Positions 1-61,110 of a DNA stretch of 64,000 bases are shown one piece after another. The DNA is from Eublepharis macularius. Lineage: Eukaryota > Chordata > Lepidosauria > Squamata > Eublepharidae. Numbering within the stretch: position 1 is the first letter of the stretch; the number at the start of each line of letters is the position of its first letter. Under the pieces are notes generated by a model. It made no database searches. It worked only from the letters and a program-made list of their open reading frames with translations, and was not told where the DNA came from. A program made the translations under genes and the position numbers. The stretch covers positions 160,400,676 through 160,464,675 of the forward strand of contig NC_072792.1 of assembly GCF_028583425.1 (NCBI RefSeq), given 5' to 3'.

Positions 1-948
1 CATTTATAAGATCCTGAGATCAATCTACAGCACCTTTACTTAACAAAGCTTTGTTAGTAGGACTGGAAAGGCAGTTGCCAGTCAAAACAGACAATGCTGG
101 ACCAATGCTCTGCCAGTTTATGTCCACTGTATGTGATCCTATGTAACTTTTTCTGCACCAACTTCTGTTAGTGAAAGAGTGCGAAAGCCTTTTTGTTTCT
201 CAGAATTTCTTTCTTCATTTCTAAATGAGGGGAAAGGTTTGTGTGTTATATACAAGCTTATATTCTCTGAAATCCTCACAGTTTTTCCTGATAATCCTGA
301 CTTTGTGTGTCGTGTAGTGCAGTCCTTCACAGGCTTAGTCTAGTCTAAGCCCAAGTCTATTATCTTGTGTATGCCTTGCATGCAAAAGACGATTGCTTTG
401 CTAACTTTCGAAGAGCAACAGAACAGCCTCTAGCTTACTCAGAAGAGCACATTCCAGCTTTATCTGTGCTCAAGGTGAACATCTTATGTGCACTGGTTGT
501 AGCATTTTTACACTCAAAAGGGGGACCGCAGGACAAATTAGGTTACCTTTCCCCCTTGTCCATGCTTTCCTCCACAAACTTATTAATTTGATTCATTGTG
601 CTTTTGATCACTGGCAGATCAACCAGCCAAGGGACCTTGTCAGCCGAGTGTGGGATTTCAAAGAGTGGATATATTTGGACAGGATTTCCTGTGGGAGGTG
701 CAAAAACTGCCGTCTTTCATCCATTTCCAAGAATAGCTTCCACCTTGAGTTCTAGATAGGATCCAACACTGTCTAGGCTGATGTGGAGGAGGTGGACACA
801 CAGGCACATGCGCACGTGCACAAACACACATGTGCGCACAGAACACCTTCCTATGTAAGCAGGAAGGAAGGGAGAGGAAAGCCCTTGCATGCATTCATAT
901 AAGACTGTACAGCTTGTGACAAACCAAGGCAAGCGGGACTCATCAGGA

Positions 949-1075
949 GGGGCTGTGGCTTAGTGGCAGAACATCTGGTTTGTGTTGCAAAGATGCCAGG
1001 TTCAGTCCCTGGCATCTCCTGGGAAAAGGATTGTGAAGACCTGCAGCTGGAGAGCCACTGCCCATCAGAGTAGAC
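949..1075 (+). repeat. tRNA-derived SINE, family A
   Basis: A tRNA-like head (GGCTGTGGCTTAGTGGCAGA for the A box and GGTTCAGTCCCTGGCATCTC for the B box) is followed by a body ending in AGTAGACAATACT. The same head and body recur at 2662-2835. The A and B boxes are internal RNA polymerase III promoter elements of the kind that drive SINE transcription. It is not a tRNA gene, because there is no acceptor stem and the body runs on. Confidence 0.75.
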
Positions 1076-1649
1076 AATACTAATTCCTTTTCAAAACTGG
1101 ATCTTATGTTCAGTTTGGAAAACTGGAGGGAGGAGGGTTGGAAAAGCTATCCTGTCCCCACTCCCCAAATGTCTGGCAATTTTGTCACTAGTGAACATAT
1201 AAAAACATACAAAGCTGGCTTATATAGTAGCTCATGCCAGGGTGTCTGTCTGCTTTGACTGGCAGCGACTTTCCAAGGTGCCAAGCAGGAACCCTGTTCC
1301 CTGAGAGCCGTGTAACAGGAGATGTTAAGAGTGGGACTTGGGACTTCTTGCATGTCTAGCAGACACTTTGTACTGCAGTATAGCTCCTCCCTGTGGATAA
1401 GTGGATGGGGAGCAAGGTTGACTAATTAGGGCAGCAGAGGTGATACATAGGGTTTGGCATCAGGGAAAGGACTGAAACCTACCATCTCTCTGCCCACTAA
1501 ACTTCACACTCCTTAACTAGTTCAGAAATAAGTAACACAAACATTAATCATAAATAGGAATTCCATACGACTCACTGCAGCAAAATAAGTTAGTAAGAGT
1601 AGAACATGAGAGCCACTGGGTTATAGTGGTGAGAATGTTGAACCACAGT

Positions 1650-1895
1650 CCAGAAAGGAGCCAGTTTGTTGTAGTGGTTAAGAGTGACGGGACTGTAATC
1701 TGAAGAACTGGGTTTGATTCCCGACTCCTCCACGTGAAGCCAGCTGGGTAACCTTGGATCAGTCATAGCTCTCCGGAGCTCCCTCACCCCTACCCACCTG
1801 TGAGGATAATAACACACTTTGTAAACTGCTCTGAGTGGTGTCCTGAAAGCTGGTATATTAATTGAATGTTATTGTTGTTATTGTTATTATTATTA
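1650..1895 (+). repeat. tRNA-derived SINE with CORE/MIR-like body, family B
   Basis: The tRNA-like head (TTGTAGTGGTTAAGAGTG and GGGTTTGATTCCCGACTCCT) leads into a CORE-like body containing AGCCAGCTGGGTAACCTTGG. It ends in the LINE-like tail TGTCCTGAAAGCTGGTATAT and a TTATTG/ATT run to about 1895. This is the commonest SINE here, with copies at 26398-26645, 39530-39778, 47038-47935 (split) and 48430-48655. Confidence 0.75.
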
Positions 1896-2047
1896 AGGGC
1901 TCTGTTCAAAGCCCCACTCTGCCATGGAAGCTCGATGGGTGACCTTGGGCCATCCATTTTCTCTCAGCCTACTCTGTGTCCCAGGCTTGTGGTAGGGATA
2001 AAATGGGGAAAGGTGAGCCCTGAGCTCCTTGGAGGAAGGGCATGTTA
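1896..2047 (+). repeat. Partial CORE-type SINE, family C
   Basis: The stretch CCCCACTCTGCCATGGAAGCTC followed by a GGTGACCTTGGGCC core matches the SINE bodies at 13564-13740 and 17795-18025. The tRNA-like head is missing, so this copy is truncated at its 5' end. Confidence 0.6.
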
Positions 2048-2535
2048 TTTATTTATTTATTTAATTTAGATTTCTATTCTGCCCTCCCCAGGAAGGGATC
2101 AGGGCGGATTACAGCATATTAAAACACATTAAAGTTAATTTATACAGTTAAAACCATAATAGATTGATAAAAATATATAATATAATATACTCACATATAA
2201 AAATATATATTCAGATGGCGGCAATCAATAGCAGCAGACACAACTCGACATGATAAGGTGGTGGATAACCTTAGTAGGGAGGGGTTCAGATTTTATTCTT
2301 CTCCATTTTTCAGGCCAGTGGAGGCCAAGCCTGACCTCAACCATATGCCTGGCGGAACATCTCTGTCTTACAGGCCCGGCGAAATGATAACACATCCTGC
2401 CGGGCCCTGGTCTCAGTAGACAGAGAGTTCCACCAGGCTGGGGCCAGGACCGAGAATGCCCTTGTTCTGGTTCAAGCCAGGCGGGCCTGCTTGGGGCCAG
2501 GGACCACCAACAGATGTTTCTCTCCTGATTGGTTA
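2048..2535 (-). repeat. LINE 3'-end fragment with ATTT tail
   Basis: A (TTTA)n run at 2048-2066 precedes TTCTATTCTGCCCTCCCCAG and GGCGGATTACAGCA. This 3'-end motif recurs at 17341, 47930 and 51660. Beyond it lies a GC-rich body with GGCGGAACATCTCTGTCTTA and CAGGCCCGGCGAAATG. Because the A/T tail lies at the left, the element reads on the minus strand. Assignment to an L2- or CR1-like LINE is inference, since no coding part is present. Confidence 0.5.
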
Positions 2536-2661
2536 AAATATGCTAGGGAGATTAAAAAAAAGGTAGAAAGGAAACAAAGTTTTTGAAAGAGGCCTAGCAG
2601 ATGGGATAACTCCTCCTGCTGTCAGGCAGCATATTTTGTCTTTGTGTGTAATGCTTGGAAG

Positions 2662-2835
2662 AGGATGTGGCTCAGTGGTAGAGCATTTGCTCGACATGCT
2701 GAAAGTTGCAGGTTCAGTCCCTGGCATCTCCAGTTCAGGATCAGGTAGCAGATGATGTGAAAGATGTCAACCTGAGACCCTGAAGAGCCTCTGCCAGCCA
2801 GAGTAGACAATATTGACCTTGATAAAGCAAGAGTA
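2662..2835 (+). repeat. tRNA-derived SINE, family A (longer copy)
   Basis: The head GATGTGGCTCAGTGGTAGAG and B box GGTTCAGTCCCTGGCATCTC are followed by CAGGATCAGGTAGCAGATGA and AGCCTCTGCCAGCCAGAGTA. It is the same family as 949-1075 but longer, ending near TTGACCTTGATAAAGC. Confidence 0.75.
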
Positions 2836-3594
2836 TTAAGGCATCTTCTTGTGCTCATGGTTTTAAGCACTATAAAACTAGGTAGTGGGATTTTTGGGAT
2901 TTTTTTTTATGATGAGCTTCCCCTTTCTGCTGTGTTTGTGAAAATACTAGAGTGGTATAGAAACTTGAGGCCTGGCAGTGATACATGAGCACTTGTGCAG
3001 AATTCCCCCCCCCCCCCGCCCTCAAGATCCTGAGAGTTTCGTAGTTTATACTGTACCCTCTTGTGGGCACATCAGTTCAAAAGAGGCCTATACATTCCAT
3101 AAATAAACATATCAAAGGGAATGAAGTTGTGGCATCACTGGAGAAAACCTCCCCGTCTCCACCAGACAATTTAAATGTTGCATTTATTGAAAAGGGATCC
3201 AGGCTGTAGTTTAGGACTGAACTTCACATTATGTTGATGCCTCAGGGTTTTTTTTTCTTTAAAAAGGCTTAAAAGCAACCACAGAGGGAGGGGTATTTTT
3301 GGACTGGAACTGTGGCATCATTTTAGCCATTTCCCCCATGACATTTCTGTGATAGGACCCCCCCACCCCCACCCCACATCCTTTCCCAAAGCAGCTATTA
3401 GTTTCACAGGGGGAAATAGGTAGGAGCCAAGGTAAATGGTTAACTGTCCCCACTCCGCATTGTCCCTCCAGTCCAGTTTGCATTGTTAAAACAAACTGGG
3501 AGATTACACGAGTTTATAACCCACAGATTTCAATAGGCTTAAGGTAGAGTAATCGTATAGGTTTGTACTGTTGATCATGGCCTTCCCACATAAT

Positions 3595-3690
3595 GGCTGC
3601 AGTCCTAAGGATGCTTTCCTGGGAGAAAGCCCTACTGAATAATGCAGTACTTGCTTCTGAGCAGACTTGCTCACGATTGCTCCTGATGTG
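3595..3690. repeat. Degenerate palindromic MITE ('CCTAAG...CAATGGGC' type)
   Basis: GCAGTCCTAAGGATGCTTTCC and a matching inverted half with CTTCTGAGCAGACTTGCTCA resemble the palindromic repeat seen best at 19575-19627. Similar decayed copies lie near 34930-35020, 35325-35400, 37880-37970 and 45950-46035. Non-autonomous hAT origin is inferred from size and shape only. Confidence 0.35.
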
Positions 3691-3788
3691 TAGCTTGGCC
3701 CATTGCAAAATATTATGGATGCAAAAGGGAAGATCGTGCGTTTGCATACGAAGGCAATGTTCTTAATCTCTGTTTTTGCATTGGTCAG

Positions 3789-4037
3789 TTTTCAGTGCTT
3801 TATCTCCTGTCCTTCGCGGTCATCATGGTGGGGTTCATCCTTTATTGCTCCACGCCGACCCGCACCGCAGAGACGGCCGAGACCAGTTTGCCACTGGCAG
3901 CCAGCACTGGATTTGACAACCTTGCCTTGAAAGTTGAGGAGAACCATCTGGATGTCGCAGCTGTCTCACCTGCACAGCATAGCAGAGAAGAAAGCGGAGC
4001 AGGGGAAGCACTGACTGCTGAACCACCAGCCTTGTGA
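3789..4037 (+). CDS. SLC35F2: SLC35F2 terminal coding exon (solute carrier 35 family)
   Basis: This is the last coding exon of a nucleotide-sugar-transporter-like membrane protein of the DMT superfamily. The frame reads [20 protein letters not shown], the final transmembrane helix. The cytosolic tail follows, with CSTPTRTAE and [12 protein letters not shown], and ends in PPAL-TGA at 4037. The STPTRTAE and DNL-LK-EEN signatures match the SLC35F2 C-terminus as I remember it; the F1 paralogue tail is different. The exon start uses the AG at 3787-3788 after a pyrimidine-rich stretch. The AG at 3794-3795 is a possible alternative. The tail is about 25 residues longer than I recall for human. In mammals SLC35F2 is a riboflavin transporter at the plasma membrane. 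Earlier exons lie left of the window. Confidence 0.85.
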
Positions 4038-30145: not shown

Positions 30146-30339
30146 AACAACCCCTTAAGCTTTCCCTGAAGTTCTGCTGGGTTACCTTACCTGTTCTCAG
30201 AACTTAAAATAAACCATAGAACAGAAACAGTACAACAGAGCCTCTGAGAACTCCAGCATTCCCTCCTATCCCTGAATAACTGCAAGCAATCCATACACAA
30301 TGGTTGTTGGGGGTTTTCCGGGCTGTATTGCCGTGGTCT

Positions 30340-30404
30340 TGGCATTGTAGTTCCTGACGTTTCGCCAGCAGCTGTGGCTGGCATCTTCAGAGGTGTAGCA
30401 CCAA
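30340..30404 (-). ncRNA. Candidate minimal hammerhead ribozyme (antisense arm)
   Basis: Exact mirror of the + copy at 30446-30510. The minus strand reads CTGAAGA, a GCCAGC/GCTGGC stem, GAAA and then CGTC, with the predicted cut after the C pairing with 30356. All details are as for the + copy. Confidence 0.6.
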
Positions 30405-30445
30405 AAGACAGAGATCTCTCAGTGTCACTGAGAGATCTCTGTCTT

Positions 30446-30510
30446 TTGGTGCTACACCTCTGAAGATGCCAGCCACAGCTGCTGGCGAAACGTCAGGAAC
30501 TACAATGCCA
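30446..30510 (+). ncRNA. Candidate minimal hammerhead ribozyme (sense arm)
   Basis: CTGAAGA (30460-30466) fits the CUGANGA core. One extra U (30467) is followed by stem II, GCCAGC (30468-30473) with GCTGGC (30481-30486), and a 7-nt loop. GAAA (30487-30490) follows. Stem III is just A-C with G-U and no loop, giving the classic GUC cleavage triplet at 30492-30494. Stem I can start CCU (30457-30459) with AGG (30495-30497), then an internal loop. Minimal hammerheads with tiny helix III are known from Penelope-like elements. Activity here is inferred from the core only. Confidence 0.65.
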
Positions 30511-31114
30511 AGACCACGGCAATACAGCCCGGAAAACCCCCAACAACCATCGTTCTCTGGCCGTGAAAGCCTTCGACAATACAATCCATACACACATGGG
30601 ATCGGGAGCATGGGCTGCTGTGACAAAAAGTTGCATCCTGTGAGGCGTTACATATCTTGGATCTGCAAATCAAAGAATCTTTTCTGCCAGTAAAGCCAAA
30701 GGCAAGGGGTTGTGGCTGTTGTGTTTTTGATCTACATGCTAGTCCAGCTAATTGGTTTATTGTTGCATTGCATAAAAGGGCCAAGGTCTTTGCTCTTATT
30801 TCGGCACAATGTTGACAGGTGAATGAATTAGATCCCACTGCGTTATGACTCTGGTGAAGAACATTCTTTGTTAGCTTTCATTTGCAGAGAACTATTTGGT
30901 CATCCCTTTTCAAATGTTGTTGCCTGACTAAACAAAATGCTCATTGTTCTGACAGGAGGAATATATATATAGGTAAAGGGTCTGTGTCACGCGACTCCTA
31001 TACACATTAACATGGCATCTCACATCAGAATGCTCAGCCTCGTACTTGCTCCTTACTTGATTTAGAAAATGTGCAGACATTGTATGACACACACCTTGTT
31101 TTTTCCCTCTTCAG

Positions 31115-53420: not shown

Positions 53421-55834
53421 ATCAGGTATAGCAGGAGGCCTCCCACCTCTAGCTTCTGGCTTCCTGCTGCTGCACAGTGCAGAAGCAGGTGAAAAATGGG
53501 GGAAGGGGGTGCTGTCACAGTGATGTTGCAATGCCCCTCCAGTTGCGCAACCACAAATGGCATCACATGTTGCTGCTCTAGTAACCCCCAGAATCTCAAT
53601 GGTAAAATAGAGATTTGTGAGATTGCTGGAGCATCATGGAAACATGATGTCACTTCTGGGTACAGGACTGGAAGTGTTGGCATGGCATGATGTGATATCA
53701 CACAACACCTAGCCCCACCCCTCAGCACTCCCAGTGAGCCACCTCTAGAAAATCTGGAGAGGCAGCATACACATTTTCTAATCTAAATAAGTAAATAAAT
53801 GGTTTGTATCCTGCTGAAAATCTCCACAAATGGAAAGGTTTTCTTGCCCGCGCAGCAATGTTGCTCTTGAAGGATGGGGGACCCCCGGAAACAGCATGAA
53901 GGGGAATCAAATATTTGCCATGGGACTTCCCAGTCAGTAGAAATGATTGGCAGAATCCAACCCAAGATTTAAAATCACTTTTGTGGAATCTCTGTTAATT
54001 GCTGGAGAATAGATTGTGCTCCTGAGCCTTCTTGGAACTTGTTTTCCAGAATCCTCTCTTTTTCAATCACAATAGCACACCCCCTTGTCTGTATGGTTGC
54101 AGATGATAGAAACACCCTTTTTCGGGGACTGTAAAGCCTCCTCACACACTTTCACTCTAATCTTCCCAAAACATACATTGTCTCCCGATAAGCCATTCCT
54201 TACAACAACCCTGGGCCAGTATTATTATGACCATTTTGCGGATGTGGCGGCAATTGTCTAAATACAAAGACCTTGTTCACAAGTTAGAGTGAACACACAT
54301 AACAATCTATGTACAGTATACACTTGATTTTTCTCTATACATGTGCTGAGTAACTCCTGTGTTACATTCAACTCATGTATTGCTCAATGGGTGATTTAGA
54401 CTCCCTGTTTATCTAGGTACTGGTCCCTATTTTCATTTGTCAAGTGAATGTGGGATGTACATTTTTGTTTATTTATTTATGTTATTTACATTCTTTATAT
54501 TTATTATGTTATTTATAGCCCACCTTTCTCACTGAGGGTCAAGGCAGACTACACAGTCTGAGTCAGTACAGAATAACCAATTTAATTTTTTAATACATTT
54601 TTTTATTTTCTAAACAACAAAAAGGATGAAGAAAAAAATAGGAAATACAGAAATACCCATTACATTAAGGGTGTACAGTCAATTTCAGAAACATTTCAAT
54701 AAACAATGTAATAGGGTATATGAATACAAGTTTGCAAAGATTCAAACCAGTAGAAATCCAAAACAGAGTGGAAGAAATGCTGAAACAGAGCATAAGGAAT
54801 TCTAAGACTGACATATTAAACCTCACAAAAACTGCCCAGTAGGAAAATATAGACTTTAAGGCTGCCTTTGCCAACATTTTGTCTTTCAGATTAAAAATTA
54901 TGAGCATTATATGTTCTGGCTAAGGAAGAGCAAATTATTACAGCATATTATTTTTGGTGGAAGCATTTTTGTGTGTGCAGAAAGTGGATCTACAGTTTCT
55001 AGTTCACCGTCCAGAATCCACATAGAAACAGAAGCTCAAAATCTGCTCAGAGCCGAATAGGCTGCATGAGTAGTATCATTAAAGTAATAGAAGCTCAAAA
55101 TGTTTTCCAACATCCATGTAAGTCAGCCCGTGGCACGCCATTCTGGGAAAGGAAGATAAAACAGCACCTTCAGCGGGCTCAGGGCATCCTTGTTCCCCTA
55201 GTAGTACATAAAGTTCCTAGATGGGAATATTTGATCTGGGAACACAGACCATATAAACGAAGAGAAGTCTTGGTTTAAGATGTTAAATATGCTAAACTGT
55301 GTGTTTGCATAACTCCAAATTAGGAGAATGTAGTTGGACAACAAGCTGAAGAATCACACGTAGAGAATCAACTTTTAGTAGACTGTCCTTTTTAAGTAAC
55401 ACTACAGAAGTCTTTATTTTCAAATCCAACCAGCAAGATACTGTTGAAAGAAATCAAAAATTTCTGTTCTTTTGAAAAAGTCTTCCTTGTCCAAAAGTAT
55501 TTCTTGAAGATGTGTTTTGGGTTTTTTAAAAACAAAGTATGGAAATATAAAATTGTATGGTCCCTACAGCCTATATTAATAGAAGCAAGTATTCCTTGTT
55601 ATTGTGAGTTATCTTGGGTTAACTTCAAGATGATAGTTGCTTGTGATAGTACTAATTTCAATTTAATTTTTAAAAGGTGCCTGGAAAGTAAGAATACTAA
55701 ATATAATTAACTTAGGAGGACAATACTTGAAAGATATAACTGAAATCGCCAGTTACCCTATATTTATTTATATACTGCAAAACTTTTTAAATAGCTTTTT
55801 TAAAAAGACAAGAAACTGAAGAGTATAGGATTAG
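53421..55834. other. Intergenic; dispersed repeats at 54265-54400 and 54515-54900
   Basis: 54265-54400 is related to 40080-40300, and 54515-54900 to 13890-14240. The remaining sequence, including 54900-55834, has no recognisable gene or element. I looked there for a continuation of the DIRS-like element beyond the PLE insertion and did not find one. Confidence 0.5.
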
Positions 55835-55870
55835 ATGTATTGTCGAAGGCTTTCAAGGCCGGAGAACGAT

Positions 55871-56225
55871 GGTTGTTGTGGGTTTTCCAGGCTGTATTGC
55901 CGTGGTCTTGGCACTGTAGTTCCTGACGTTTCGCCAGCAGCTGTGGCTGGCATCTTCAGAGGTGTAGCACCAAAAGACAGAGATCTCTCAGTGTCACAGT
56001 GTGGAAAAGATGTTGGCAGGTCATTTGTATCTACTCAGGAGGGGTGGGGTTGAGCTGAGTCATCCAGTAAGTTTCCCAGGGTGTGGAATGCTAATGGCGG
56101 GAGGCTTCACTGTATCCTGAGGAGGTTCTTTTGCATATGGATTGGTGCTTGATGTGCTAATCTTCTCTGCAGGGCTATTGTCGAGTGTAGAGTGTTTTGT
56201 TAGCCTGGTGTTTTTCAGAACTGGA
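55871..56225 (-). repeat. Left inverted arm of the PLE
   Basis: Reverse-complement counterpart of 57717-58073. It holds antisense 3' coding sequence of the element (from about 56035 to 56225) plus its 3' non-coding end and a minus-strand hammerhead motif. A few mismatches to the right arm are visible, for example TTTTCCAGGCTG here against TTTTCCGGGCTG in the complement of the right arm. Confidence 0.9.
55909..55973 (-). ncRNA. Candidate hammerhead ribozyme, left PLE arm
   Basis: On the minus strand CTGAAGA (complement of 55953-55959), a GCCAGC/GCTGGC stem, GAAA and CGTC, with the cut predicted after the C opposite 55925. The core is identical to the motif at 30446-30510. Confidence 0.6.
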
Positions 56226-57909
56226 CCCCTCCACCTACAAAAAACTAAAACGAGATCCCACCTGCAAAATCACCAGGCTAACAAATGCGCTGATCAAGAA
56301 TTCCTCACTACATCCTGACACGCACAGAAAACTATGCAAGACAGAAGCACAGCCACCCAGACTATATGGACTCCCTAAAATACACAAGGATTCAGTCCCA
56401 CTCCGACCCATTGTGAGTGCCATTGTTTCACCAACATATGAATTAGCTAGACATCTGGCCGATCTCCTGCAGGATCACATCGGGAAAACCTCGTCTTACA
56501 TCAAAGATTCAGCAGATTTCATCAACAAAATCAGTTCTCTGAAACTTAATCCACGAGACATACTTGTCAGTTTTGATGTTGTATCCCTGTTTACCAAGGT
56601 TCCAGTAAAAGACACTATTGCACTTATTAATCAGATTTTCCCAGAGGATGCAACAGCCTTATTCCATCATTGTCTGACAACCAGTTACTTCCAATGGGAC
56701 AACGAATTCTATGAACAGATGGATGGGGTGGCCATGGGGAGCCCTCTCAGCCCAGTTATAGCAAACTTCTACATGGAACATTTTGAAAAAACAGCTCTAG
56801 AATCAGCACCCCACAAACCTAGTGTATGGTTCCGGTTTGTGGATGATACATTTATCATTTGGAGCCATGGGGAGGAGGAATTGATGGGGTTTTTGAATCA
56901 TCTCAGCAACATCCACCGGAACATACAATTCACAATGGAGAAAGAAATCAAGGGAAAACTCCCATTTCTGGATACCTTGGTCATCCGCAAAGCAAACTTT
57001 CAGTTAGGTCACAAGGTCTACAGGAAACCAACTCACACTGATCGGTACTTACACAAAAACTCCAATCACCACCCCCGACAGAAAAGAGGCATAATGAAAA
57101 CATTAGTGGATCGCGCAAGACGGATATGTGAGCCGCACTTTCTCAATGAGGAAATTAATCATCTAATCCACGCACTTCAGGCAAATGGCTACTCCAGAAA
57201 TGAAATCCGAAGAGCAATCAAACCCAGGATGAATCAAACAACCAAGGACAAACAGTCTCCTACAGGAAAAGTGTTTTTGCCATATATCAAAGGAATTACT
57301 GATCAGATGGGAAAGCTTATGAAAAAGCATAACCTTCAAGCAGTATTCAGACCCACCCGAAAAATACAACAGATGCTACGATCAGCAAAAGACAGTAGAG
57401 ACCCCCTCACCTCTGCAGGAGTATACCATATACCCTGCAGCTGTGGACAAGTTTACATCGGGACCACAAAGCATAGCATCCAGACAAGAATAAAAGAACA
57501 TGAAAGACACTGCAGACTTGGACAACCGGAAAAATCAGCAGTGGCTGAACATAGCCTAACTCAAACAGGGCACAGTATCTTATTCCAGGACACCAAAATA
57601 CTGGACAACACTTCCAACTACTTTGTCAGACTGCACAGGGAAGCCATTGAAATTCACAAGCATAAGCAAAACTTCAACAGGAAAGAAGAAACCTTAAGAA
57701 TGAACAGAGCATGGTTTCCAGTTCTGAAAAGCACCAGGCTAACAAAACACTCTATACTCGACAATAGCCCTGCAGAGAAGATTAGCACATCAAGCACCAA
57801 TCCATATGCAAAAGAACCTCCTCAGGATACAGTGAAGCCTCCTGCCATTAGCATTCCACACCCTGGGAAACTCTTACAGGATGAATCAGCTCAACCCCAC
57901 CCCTCCTGA
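56197..57909 (+). CDS. PLE reverse transcriptase with C-terminal GIY-YIG endonuclease (5'-truncated)
   Basis: This 570-codon frame has no stop. Residues 1 to about 10 come from the antisense left arm, and PLE homology starts near PSTYKKLKRDPT. RT blocks in order: RLYGLPKIHKDSVPLRPIVS (about 53-72), LVSFDVVSLFTKVP (motif A, catalytic Asp, ~120), GVAMGSPLSPVIANFYMEHF (~178), WFRFVDDTFIIW (motif C, FVDD, ~212), then GKLPFLDTLVI and VYRKPTHTDRYLH. After a linker, GVYHIPCSCGQVYIGTT (about 408-424) is the GIY-YIG core, followed by TRIKEHERHC. RT copies the element RNA and the endonuclease nicks target DNA. Full PLE ORFs are longer, so roughly 150-250 N-terminal residues are missing. The ATG used here may not be a real start. 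Confidence 0.9.
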   Translation: MLAWCFSELDPSTYKKLKRDPTCKITRLTNALIKNSSLHPDTHRKLCKTEAQPPRLYGLPKIHKDSVPLRPIVSAIVSPTYELARHLADLLQDHIGKTSSYIKDSADFINKISSLKLNPRDILVSFDVVSLFTKVPVKDTIALINQIFPEDATALFHHCLTTSYFQWDNEFYEQMDGVAMGSPLSPVIANFYMEHFEKTALESAPHKPSVWFRFVDDTFIIWSHGEEELMGFLNHLSNIHRNIQFTMEKEIKGKLPFLDTLVIRKANFQLGHKVYRKPTHTDRYLHKNSNHHPRQKRGIMKTLVDRARRICEPHFLNEEINHLIHALQANGYSRNEIRRAIKPRMNQTTKDKQSPTGKVFLPYIKGITDQMGKLMKKHNLQAVFRPTRKIQQMLRSAKDSRDPLTSAGVYHIPCSCGQVYIGTTKHSIQTRIKEHERHCRLGQPEKSAVAEHSLTQTGHSILFQDTKILDNTSNYFVRLHREAIEIHKHKQNFNRKEETLRMNRAWFPVLKSTRLTKHSILDNSPAEKISTSSTNPYAKEPPQDTVKPPAISIPHPGKLLQDESAQPHPS

Positions 57910-58073
57910 GTAGATATAAATAACCTGCCAACATCTTTTCCACACTGTGACACTGAGAGATCTCTGTCTTTTGGTGCTACACCTCTGAAGATGCCAGCCA
58001 CAGCTGCTGGCGAAACGTCAGGAACTACAATGCCAAGACCACGGCAATACAGCCCGGAAAACCCACAACAACC
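57717..58073 (+). repeat. Right arm of the PLE (sense 3' end)
   Basis: It encodes the last ~64 residues of the RT/endonuclease frame, the TGA at 57907-57909 and the 3' non-coding end with the plus-strand hammerhead motif. Inverted partner of 55871-56225. Confidence 0.9.
57971..58035 (+). ncRNA. Candidate hammerhead ribozyme, right PLE arm
   Basis: CTGAAGA (57985-57991), one extra U, the stem GCCAGC/GCTGGC, GAAA (58012-58015), C and GUC with the cut predicted after 58019. It lies downstream of the ORF in the same orientation, the position reported for PLE-encoded hammerheads. Sequence and core match 30446-30510. Confidence 0.65.
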
Positions 58074-58089
58074 AACAGTATAGGATTAG

Positions 58090-58639: not shown

Positions 58640-59655
58640 TGCCTTGCTGTCACACCAAAAATGACCAGAGTGGTTAGCCAATTCCCTCTCCCACAAGCAA
58701 ACTGCCACAAGGATAGGGAAAAATTCCAAAAAGTAAGGTCTTAAGTAAGACCCCTTTTTGACCATTCAACTGGCCACATCAGTGCCCCTGGAAATAGACC
58801 CTGAAGCTGATGGACCCAGAGGCATCAGAGGTAATCTGGAGCTCTGCCTCCAGCCACTGTTCCTTCCTCCAGAAGGTAACCCCATTGAATGAGACAAGAA
58901 AGTCCTCCCACACCTGGAGGTCTTCATGCAGCCCTTACTAATACGAAGGCCGTAGTGAGGCAACCGCAGGGTGCCCATGGCATCACATAGATGCTGAAGA
59001 AACTCCCTCCCTGGCACCATCACTCTACAGGCAAAATTTAAATGCCCCACCAGCTACTGTAGATCCAGGAGGGAAACCTTGTGCTTCTCCCTAAAGGAGG
59101 CCAGCTGGGCACGAAGGTACCTCAACTTCTCAGCTGGAAACTGAGATTTGCTGCGCCATGTTGAGTTCAGTGCCCAAGAATGTCAACACTGGTGCAGGGC
59201 CATGTCTTTTCGTGGGCCAGTGGGACCCCTAATTTACCTGCAAGGCTAACAAAGAGCAGAACCACAAGTGACAAAAGGCACAGATTGGACACTTGTCAGC
59301 TTCCCTCAAGTTTTGATGGGAAATGTAGGCATCCTAGTCTTGAAGCTTGGCTCTCTGACTGCTGTCCAATGGACTTTTCAATTGTTATTTGTCCAACATT
59401 CCGCCAAGCTGCCTACATTTCCCATCAAAACTTGAGGGAAGCTGACAAGTGTCCAATCTGTGCCTTTTGTCACTTGTGGTTCTGCTCAAAGCCAGCCAGG
59501 AGACAGGCACATTGGCCCAAACCTGCAGGGCCCACAAAAAGAAAGTCATCCAAATAGTGGACCATGTCCTGGCAGTGAAGCTGGTACTACAAAGCCCACT
59601 TGAGGAAAGAGGTGAAATGCTCAAAGGCCACACATGAAACTGAGCACCCCATTGG
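58640..59655 (-). pseudogene. DIRS-like reverse transcriptase/RNase H, fragmented
   Basis: On the minus strand CPMGCSVSC (about 59629-59655) precedes the palm motif MVHYLDDFLFVGPAGLGQ (about 59519-59572), which carries the catalytic YLDD. The next part lies beyond the MITE at 59255-59486: LGVPLAHEKTW, then LVGHLNFACRVMVPGREF (near 59010-59050), and then HSD/GFGVYFRG-like RNase H residues in shifted frames. Several stops and frameshifts are present. Confidence 0.65.
59255..59486. mobile_element. MITE with 75-bp inverted repeats and CAAAG TSD
   Basis: AGCAGAACCACAAGTGACAA, GCACAGATTGGACACTTGTC and AGTTTTGATGGGAAATGTAG are mirrored exactly at the right end. CAAAG is duplicated (59250-59254 and 59487-59491). 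Removing the element with one CAAAG copy brings the flanking RT segments back together. Confidence 0.82.
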
Positions 59656-59679
59656 GAGCATCTTGTCCATGTAGAATTG

Positions 59680-61110
59680 GCCCTCGACTGGCAGACTGCT
59701 GGGAGCCTCCACCCCCATGCTTACCACCTTTTCTCAGCAGCTTGGGACAGGAGGTAAATGCATGGGGAATGTCACAGATTGGGTATTGGTGCTTGAAGCT
59801 ACAGGACTTTCTGGAGCAGACTCCCTGGGAGCTGAACTGCCAGCAAAGTAGGCTGGATTGAACCGGCTGCCCTGTGGTGGCGTAAGCACCAGAGGAGGGT
59901 GGAAGCCTTTGAATCAGATTACCACTGTCAGAGCGATCACTGGGTTTGGGTTTGGCAGGGGACATCACCTGCAACCAAAGCTGTTGGTGAATCTGGTCCC
60001 AGGGAATTTTTGGGTTAAGAGCAGCCCTTATATAGAACTCTGTCGTACTGCAACCAAAGAGCACTGGTGAAGTCCGTGTAACCCTTATAAATTATGTCGA
60101 TGTATTGGAACAGAGGGGCCGCCCACCAAGACTGCACACGAGCCAACACCCCAGTGTAGATCAGCATGCCTGGCAGCCAATTGGCCCAGGTGTGATCCAC
60201 TTTCCTGTGCTTAAGCCTCTCCTTTCCCCTGTCATCAAGGTCTTCTTTCTCCTTCTCCAGTTCCCTGAGGAGGCAGGTGAAGATGTCGACAGGATCTTAT
60301 CCCTTGTGGCCTGGGTCAGATGGTCCCCTAAAGGCAGTGCCGAGTTGCTAAAAGACAAGTCCCAAAACAGCACCGTGCCCTGTTGGGAATTCCATGAAAC
60401 AGTGGGATAATTGTGCCAAGATGCCCCATGAATGGCTGTCCTATCCCATCGTGCCATGCAAAGGGGACAGTGCCTGCCTGCATGTGCAGTGTGCCGGCTC
60501 AGCCCCCATGTTGACCCAACCAAGTGGGATGGCCTCAGGGGGAACAAGATGTAGTCATGGCTGGGACTTGAGATGGTCCAGCCTGCATGTAGGGTGTGTG
60601 TACTTGGCCTGGACAGGGGCTGTTGGCTGGCCCCAAGACCCCCAAGGCCAAGCACAACTGTTGTGGTAATGTGGTTTTACTGGTGTCTTCAGTTGGTTCT
60701 GTTGTGACTGGATCCACTGCCAACACAATGGGCTCAGACTCTGTTGACCAACCCTTGTCAGTGGCAAATATGGCCACAACTGCAGCTGCACCTCCCACCA
60801 ACTGGATTCCGCTGTTCCATTTGCCTTCAGCAGGACCTGCTGTCCCCTCAAGGGCAGAGTGATGAGTTACCACATCATGCTGGAAGGCTGCCTTAGAGGT
60901 CAGCTTGCCTGATCTCTGTTGCCTGGGCCCACCCGTCGCAGCTGACAAAGACACCCCTAGCCTGTTCAAGGGCAGCCAAACAAGCCAGAATTTCCTGCCT
61001 ACAAAGGACACTCTTATTCTCATCTGAGGAAGATAAGGTGGGTGCAGCTGGTTTGGCAGCAAGCCTTCTTGGAAGCTGCTTGCCCTTGGAAGGCCCTCTA
61101 CCTTTACTTG
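59680..61110 (-). pseudogene. DIRS-like Gag remnant
   Basis: In minus frames: MPSSKGRGPSKGKQLPRRLA at the N-terminus (~61115), LGDHLTQATRDKI (~60330), DHTWANWLPGMLIYTGVLAR and AAPLFQYIDIIYKGYTDFTS (60060-60200). Then come WDQIHQQLWLQVMSPAKPKP and a Cys/His motif, CWQFSSQGVCSRKSCSFKHQ. Frame changes between blocks show it is broken. A CCCH-like C-X8-C-X4-C-X3-H motif at the end of Gag is seen in DIRS-type elements. Confidence 0.6.

Follow-up and report, generated by a model that had tools for sequence, protein, structure and literature searches.

Minimal hammerhead motifs overlapping the start codon in the inverted arms of a Penelope-like element from Eublepharis macularius

The stretch of Eublepharis macularius DNA analysed here (64,000 nucleotides, the 64-kb window) carries a Penelope-like element (PLE) whose two arms, or pseudo-LTRs (pLTRs), face each other across a truncated reading frame. 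The element is bracketed by a 13-nt identity and consists of the following parts:

55822..55834, no strand: left target-site duplication, AGTATAGGATTAG, a 13-nt identity with 58077-58089
55835..56225, minus strand: left arm, an inverted pLTR that includes a tail (55835-55869); inverted repeat of the right arm, 97% identical over 55870-56225 (347 of the 358 columns aligned with 57717-58074)
56197..57909, plus strand: 5'-truncated PLE ORF (RVT_1, E=9e-13; 74% identity to the Anolis proteins P0001 and P0002)
57717..58074, plus strand: right arm (pLTR) without tail, ending at +84 from its own ATG
57914..57922, plus strand: ATATAAATA, a TATA-like box ahead of the hammerhead core, called by sequence match alone
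58077..58089, no strand: right target-site duplication, AGTATAGGATTAG

With pLTRs, a tail on one end and a target-site duplication, the insertion has the features of a PLE. Left-arm sequence supplies the first codons of the ORF, from 56197 to about 56225, where the ORF is joined to it. Nothing in the ORF corresponds to about the first 300 of the 836 residues of P0002. The ORF encodes a PLE reverse transcriptase, RVT_1 being its sole Pfam domain at E<=0.01, and P0001 and P0002 from Anolis are the best among the matches listed, the identity of 74% extending over 89% of the query. These relatives point to a vertebrate host, probably a squamate. We also take the stretch GVYHIPCSCGQVYIGTT in this ORF to resemble the GIY-YIG endonuclease motif. 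A partial protein named Escherichia coli (P0083) shares 59% identity with the ORF and is probably eukaryotic assembly contamination.

A blastn comparison of the whole PLE with the window returned only two elements, the PLE itself and a mini-PLE at 30301-30581, whose two inverted arms form a palindrome that encloses no ORF:

30287..30299, no strand: left target-site duplication of the mini-PLE, CAATCCATACACA, a 13-nt identity with 30582-30594
30301..30428, minus strand: left arm, tail-less, ending at +84
30356..30390, minus strand: hammerhead core of the left arm (exact pattern match)
30426..30581, plus strand: right arm with tail, ending at +116
30460..30494, plus strand: hammerhead core of the right arm (exact pattern match)
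30582..30594, no strand: right target-site duplication, CAATCCATACACA

The mini-PLE arms overlap by CAC at 30426-30428. The palindrome, measured from 30297 to 30581, is nearly perfect, with 128-nt arms that are 99% complementary around a 1-nt centre at 30425. A single unexplained nucleotide (30300) separates the tail-less arm end from its duplication, and two unexplained nucleotides (58075-58076) lie at the corresponding place in the PLE, between the end of the right arm and the duplication. When random pairs of 41-bp windows were compared as a control, an identity of at least 13 nt occurred in 1 of 3000 pairs and was then 40 nt long; the search that found the mini-PLE duplication used 48 and 71 bp.

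Both arms of the PLE contain the same 35 nt, CTGAAGA-T-GCCAGC-CACAGCT-GCTGGC-GAAAC-GTC, on opposite strands:

55925..55959, minus strand: hammerhead core of the left arm (exact pattern match), with the predicted cut 3' of C55925
57969..57975, plus strand: 5' strand of outer helix I, partner at 58032-58038 (predicted pair probabilities 0.68-0.91)
57985..58019, plus strand: hammerhead core of the right arm (exact pattern match), with the predicted cut between C58019 and A58020
57985-57991, plus strand: CTGAAGA of the right arm
57991..57993, plus strand: PLE start codon ATG, which is A9-U-G10.1 of the core; reads MPATAAGETSGTTMPRPRQYSPENPQQP (compare P0002, MPAIDVGETSG...)
57993-57998 with 58006-58011, plus strand: right-arm stem II, 6 bp, GCCAGC with GCTGGC
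58012-58015, plus strand: GAAA of the right arm, followed by C58016 and GUC at 58017-58019

A sequence-only reading of this DNA had reported the core parts in order in the right arm and mirrored in the left arm, and the exact matches on both strands bear this out. Its bounds, 57971-58035 and 55909-55973, also include part of outer helix I. The two mini-PLE cores, the extra U57992, the missing helix III loop and the start codon inside the core go beyond that reading. The order CUGANGA, GAAA, UH is that of a hammerhead. The motif departs from the canonical form in two ways: A9 and stem II are separated by an additional U57992, and helix III consists of A58015-C58016-G58017-U58018 only, with zero loop nucleotides between C58016 and G58017. 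The motif therefore lacks the intramolecular, looped helix III of a canonical type I hammerhead. The start codon at 57991-57993 sits within the core, and the predicted cut falls 26 nt past it (57994-58019). The pattern CTGANGA-N(4-30)-GAAACGTC occurs four times in the 64-kb window, compared with a mean of 0.01 in 100 shuffles, none of which had four; the copies are one family and not four independent events.

The arms are the pseudo-LTRs of a Poseidon/PAc-like Penelope element, each with a PLE-type minimal type I hammerhead. This kind of hammerhead is itself already known and the copies described here are new members. Judged from the sequence, the label appears to fit the core, stem II, the reduced helix III and the pLTR location. 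The sequence-only reading had pointed to minimal hammerheads with very short helix III in PLE terminal repeats, and the motif agrees with the descriptions in two reviews, according to which minimal hammerheads in PLE pLTRs lack helix III (PMC6155905, PMC7761336), are arranged in tandem and may work as dimers (PMC7761336). Cervera and de la Pena (2014) and Lunse et al. (2017), as far as citing papers describe their work, dealt with minimal type I hammerheads in which, as here, helix III has no non-conserved nucleotides and the location is a PLE pseudo-LTR. Those hammerheads are in tandem and perhaps dimeric, whereas the copies in the window face each other and leave one sense core per transcript.

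One of the closest known systems is PAc, the Poseidon hammerhead of Anolis carolinensis (Frangieh et al. 2024, PMC11167929). PAc RNA is cut 26 nt past the AUG and has C3 and G8 upstream of it; the mutants C3G and G8C lose cleavage and the double mutant partly regains it (PMC11167929). Cleavage does not occur without protein but does with an endonuclease-dead protein, no RNA-seq ends were found at the cut site, and insertion in vitro is unaffected by hammerhead mutations (PMC11167929). The window copy is like PAc in having the start codon where stem II begins, the cut 26 nt past the AUG and C3 and G8 before the AUG, but it is 5'-truncated and its arms are inverted instead of tandem. Its N-terminus reads MPATAAGETSG, compared with MPAIDVGETSG in P0002. 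The latter, the A. carolinensis protein with 74% identity to the window ORF, is presumably PAc itself, which we consider likely.

We hold it highly probable that the arms carry a PLE-type minimal hammerhead whose lone RNA is largely inactive and requires a protein or a second sense copy, and that the inverted layout arose from two-ended priming. Cleavage, if any, would then require the element's own protein or another sense RNA; in the dimer route, helix III would form between two palindromic ACGU strands. Such cleavage, 26 nt past the AUG, would separate the start codon from the ORF and give 5'-OH RNA ends at AGGAACTAC. If the core works, stem II should be kept and GAAACGUC should be constrained at synonymous sites in related PLE DNA. 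During insertion, each end of the broken target would prime reverse transcription, one at the tail site (about +116) and the opposite one at the tail-less site (+84), and short homology would then serve to join both cDNAs. On this proposal there is one core per strand because two-ended priming inserted the arms inverted.

The ends of the arms are informative here. Numbered from the A of each arm's ATG, the tail-less arm stops at +84 in the PLE (58074) and likewise in the mini-PLE (30301), and the tailed arm stops at +119 in the PLE (55835) and +116 in the mini-PLE (30581). PAc cleaves and extends both strands; its reverse transcription begins 111-118 bp into the ORF, and its two start sites, which lie on either side of the tail and account for it, do not differ between the strands (PMC11167929). 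Two separate insertions, each with 13-bp duplications and with ends at +84 and +116/+119, fit the two starts of PAc in vitro. At their other ends, the mini-PLE arms reach template positions 57947 (left) and 57951 (right), and both stops lie 32-36 nt past position 57915, where TATAAAT begins with its first T. Such stops resemble run-off at the 5' end of the RNA.

The same ribozyme could also have come to lie in inverted arms through self-priming (snap-back) of one cDNA, an account that we regard as possible but distinctly less probable. Self-priming was proposed as the cause of the Penelope inverted repeats of Adineta vaga in the accessible part of PMC3846280, and the near-perfect palindrome of the mini-PLE with its 1-nt centre would suit it. 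Snap-back copies one arm from the other, however, so that like ends are expected, whereas each element has two different end sites, both of which agree with where PAc is known to start. This inequality of the arm ends argues against plain snap-back, and both mini-PLE arms halt at 57947-57951, as would be expected of two run-offs. The accessible portions of PMC11167929 and PMC3846280 do not state two-ended priming for PLEs. The element Pen2a_Av of Adineta vaga resembles the PLE of the window: in the part of PMC3846280 that describes it, an inverted pLTR completes the insert, one inverted pLTR may bear a tail at its 3' end, the TSD is short (9 bp) and the pLTR includes the first ORF codons. In that same part the word hammerhead has 0 occurrences and no ORF-less palindrome is described. 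The ribozyme was already known; what is useful here is a fossil record of PLE insertion, and two-ended priming can be tested by counting arm ends in any lizard genome.

The core is also coding sequence, GAA ACG TC(N) being translated as E-T-S, and the motif might therefore be kept for the N-terminus of the protein (MPA...GETSG), with no ribozyme at all and a coincidental stem. The position of the core inside the start of the ORF, the conservation of ETS as amino acids and the independence of PAc insertion in vitro from hammerhead activity (PMC11167929) are in line with such a reading. For a comparative test we used the N-termini of related proteins, since the core is translated and no useful related DNA was obtained for covariation: a pattern scan of viral contigs gave 0 hits, two protein-guided scans of viral contigs gave 5 and 46 stretches matching the pattern and no relative among them, and one scan of genome contigs gave only L001 and L002, neither with the core pattern. 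L002 matches query residues 339-368 only. L001 contains at 2143-3557 a broken PLE coding sequence; its contig is filed under a Pseudogulbenkiania MAG and is probably a piece of eukaryotic DNA that was binned with bacteria.

The protein pool (n=166) comprised the best 120 of 3290 matches listed, the results of an N-terminal search and the best 120 of 1668 profile matches. As the N-terminal search gave 6 proteins including the query, a full-length profile search was used; its profile was built from 10 proteins that include all 6 with Met-x6-ETS, and the sample leans toward their kin. An LYGE-like anchor was present within the first 170 residues in 34 of the 166 proteins, 23 of which had at least 20 residues before it. 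Among these 23, ETS precedes the anchor in 7 and stands exactly 7 residues past a Met in 6, and 16 are without ETS; any other combination of tripeptide and offset (offsets 1-39) is found in at most 3. ETS was noticed first and counted afterwards, which makes this test post hoc.

For the codons, we compared the six Met-x6-Glu-Thr-Ser proteins and the window (seven sequences), with DNA inferred from protein. Stem II was represented by the codons of residues 2-3 and 6-7, any synonymous codon was allowed and the 3' halves were permuted. Watson-Crick pairs were possible at 37 of 42 positions against a permutation mean of 26.9, and 2 of 5040 permutations, the true order included, were as good. Leaving out the window gave 31 of 36 against 22.7, with the true order itself as the only one of 720 that was as good. 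With G-U pairs allowed the figures were 40 of 42 with 4 of 5040 as good, or 2 of 720 without the window. The effect is abolished in six registers slid by 1-3 nt either way, in which 500 to 3930 of 5040 permutations were as good. Three of the proteins (P0007, P0016, P0067) entered with a Met that is not the first residue (1, 61 and 23 residues downstream, respectively), and P0043, with ETS 3 residues past its first Met, was left out. A source is named for two of the six, Anolis for P0002 and the ladybird Henosepilachna for P0016.

In this small and indirect test, distant PLE proteins thus appear to keep codons able to pair as stem II in the hammerhead register only. Against a purely coding role, residues 2 and 7 vary (P/G, L/S, S/D, E/S, P/C, E/F), yet their codons can remain complementary, in that register only. 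Moreover, CTGAAG, which lies ahead of the ATG and so outside the coding sequence, fits the core, and PAc cleavage requires C3 and G8 (PMC11167929). We therefore judge it very improbable that the motif is there for the protein only.

For the PLE-type minimal hammerhead that we favour, the predicted folds bear on whether one RNA could act alone. Stem II forms with pair probabilities of 0.93-0.99. For stem I, CCU/AGG plus the outer 7-bp helix are possible, but in the energy model the inner pairs lose to a pairing of the core CUGA with UCAG around the cut (0.005-0.008 compared with 0.70-0.96), and U57992 pairs with the core base G58012 at a probability of 0.82. The CUGA-UCAG pairing belongs to the minimum-energy monomer fold at -22.6 kcal/mol, compared with -18.6 kcal/mol for the hammerhead fold. 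As ACGU is self-complementary, helix III could form between one sense RNA and another (4 bp, worth -1.7 kcal/mol by itself), and a knot-free double-hammerhead dimer can be drawn at -37.7; the best free dimer scores -51.7 and a pair of monomers -45.2. In this model, which excludes tertiary contacts and protein, secondary-structure energy favours inactive folds in monomer and dimer alike.

The arrangement of the copies matters as well. Tandem sense copies are absent, both elements in the window carrying two inverted cores, although tandem arrangement concerns how copies lie and is not a property of the hammerhead motif. Whichever strand of an element is transcribed, the RNA holds a single sense core together with an antisense arm; dimer action in one molecule would require two sense cores in tandem. 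A dimer between the two arms of one element was considered and rejected: the arms are inverted, and the partner of a core would be antisense. The sequence-only reading had suggested that the arms could pair with each other in competition with the ribozyme, and this holds up in the predictions, with an arm duplex of -718.9 kcal/mol and a mini-PLE that folds end to end as a hairpin.

The same reading had proposed that transcripts from either strand self-cleave at the arms and set precise RNA ends, and had named a lack of support from a covariance model among the results that would refute it. Searches with Rfam found no hammerhead in the 64-kb window at gathering cutoffs; at E<=10 the right arm gave no match of any kind and the left arm one unrelated weak match (STnc550, 11.4 bits). 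In our judgement Rfam is a poor test here, because its model expects helix III and the motif is without it. An arm RNA of either strand that folds and cuts itself unaided is nevertheless hardly credible, all letters of the catalytic core being present but a helix III without loop being one that a single molecule cannot form, inner stem I being predicted at very low probability, PAc RNA staying uncut without protein and showing no RNA-seq ends at the site (PMC11167929), Rfam being silent, and inverted arms with one sense core per transcript making unaided cleavage from either strand unlikely.

If the protein is what the minimal hammerhead requires, a further consequence can be considered. Because PAc is cleaved only in the presence of its protein, freshly synthesised protein could activate the ribozyme. 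In PLEs from beetle to lizard the start codon would be a functional element of the core (A9-U-G10.1), and new protein would trigger the cut and end translation, a switch from translation to transposition. We offer this as a speculation with a slim chance of being correct. If it were true, the extra U would be the price of having an AUG within the core, and the cut 26 nt into the ORF would turn the messenger into an untranslatable template.

The overlap of start codon and core is visible in proteins and suggests a cheap search for PLE hammerheads of the kind missed here by Rfam. Two gene models of Anolis carolinensis contain related sequence. The model of leukocyte elastase inhibitor isoform X1 (P0122) starts with MPAIDVGETSGENASGTWP..., which corresponds in translation to PLE arm with start codon and core, and its sequence suggests that a PLE arm may be used as first exon. 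The FGD4 model (P0121) contains ENTSGTWPHSPKDLQQPCDSGHESLRQH, a peptide of PLE arm plus tail within a host gene model. A scan for bacterial promoters and terminators is uninformative for eukaryotic DNA such as this. Elsewhere in the window, a tRNA-like match at 2661-2732 (Rfam RF00005, 39.3 bits) is possibly the head of a tRNA-derived SINE, and an ORF at 59621-60064 on the minus strand has a CCCH-like stretch (CWQFSSQGVCSRKSCSFKH) and is perhaps a gag-like piece of another retroelement.
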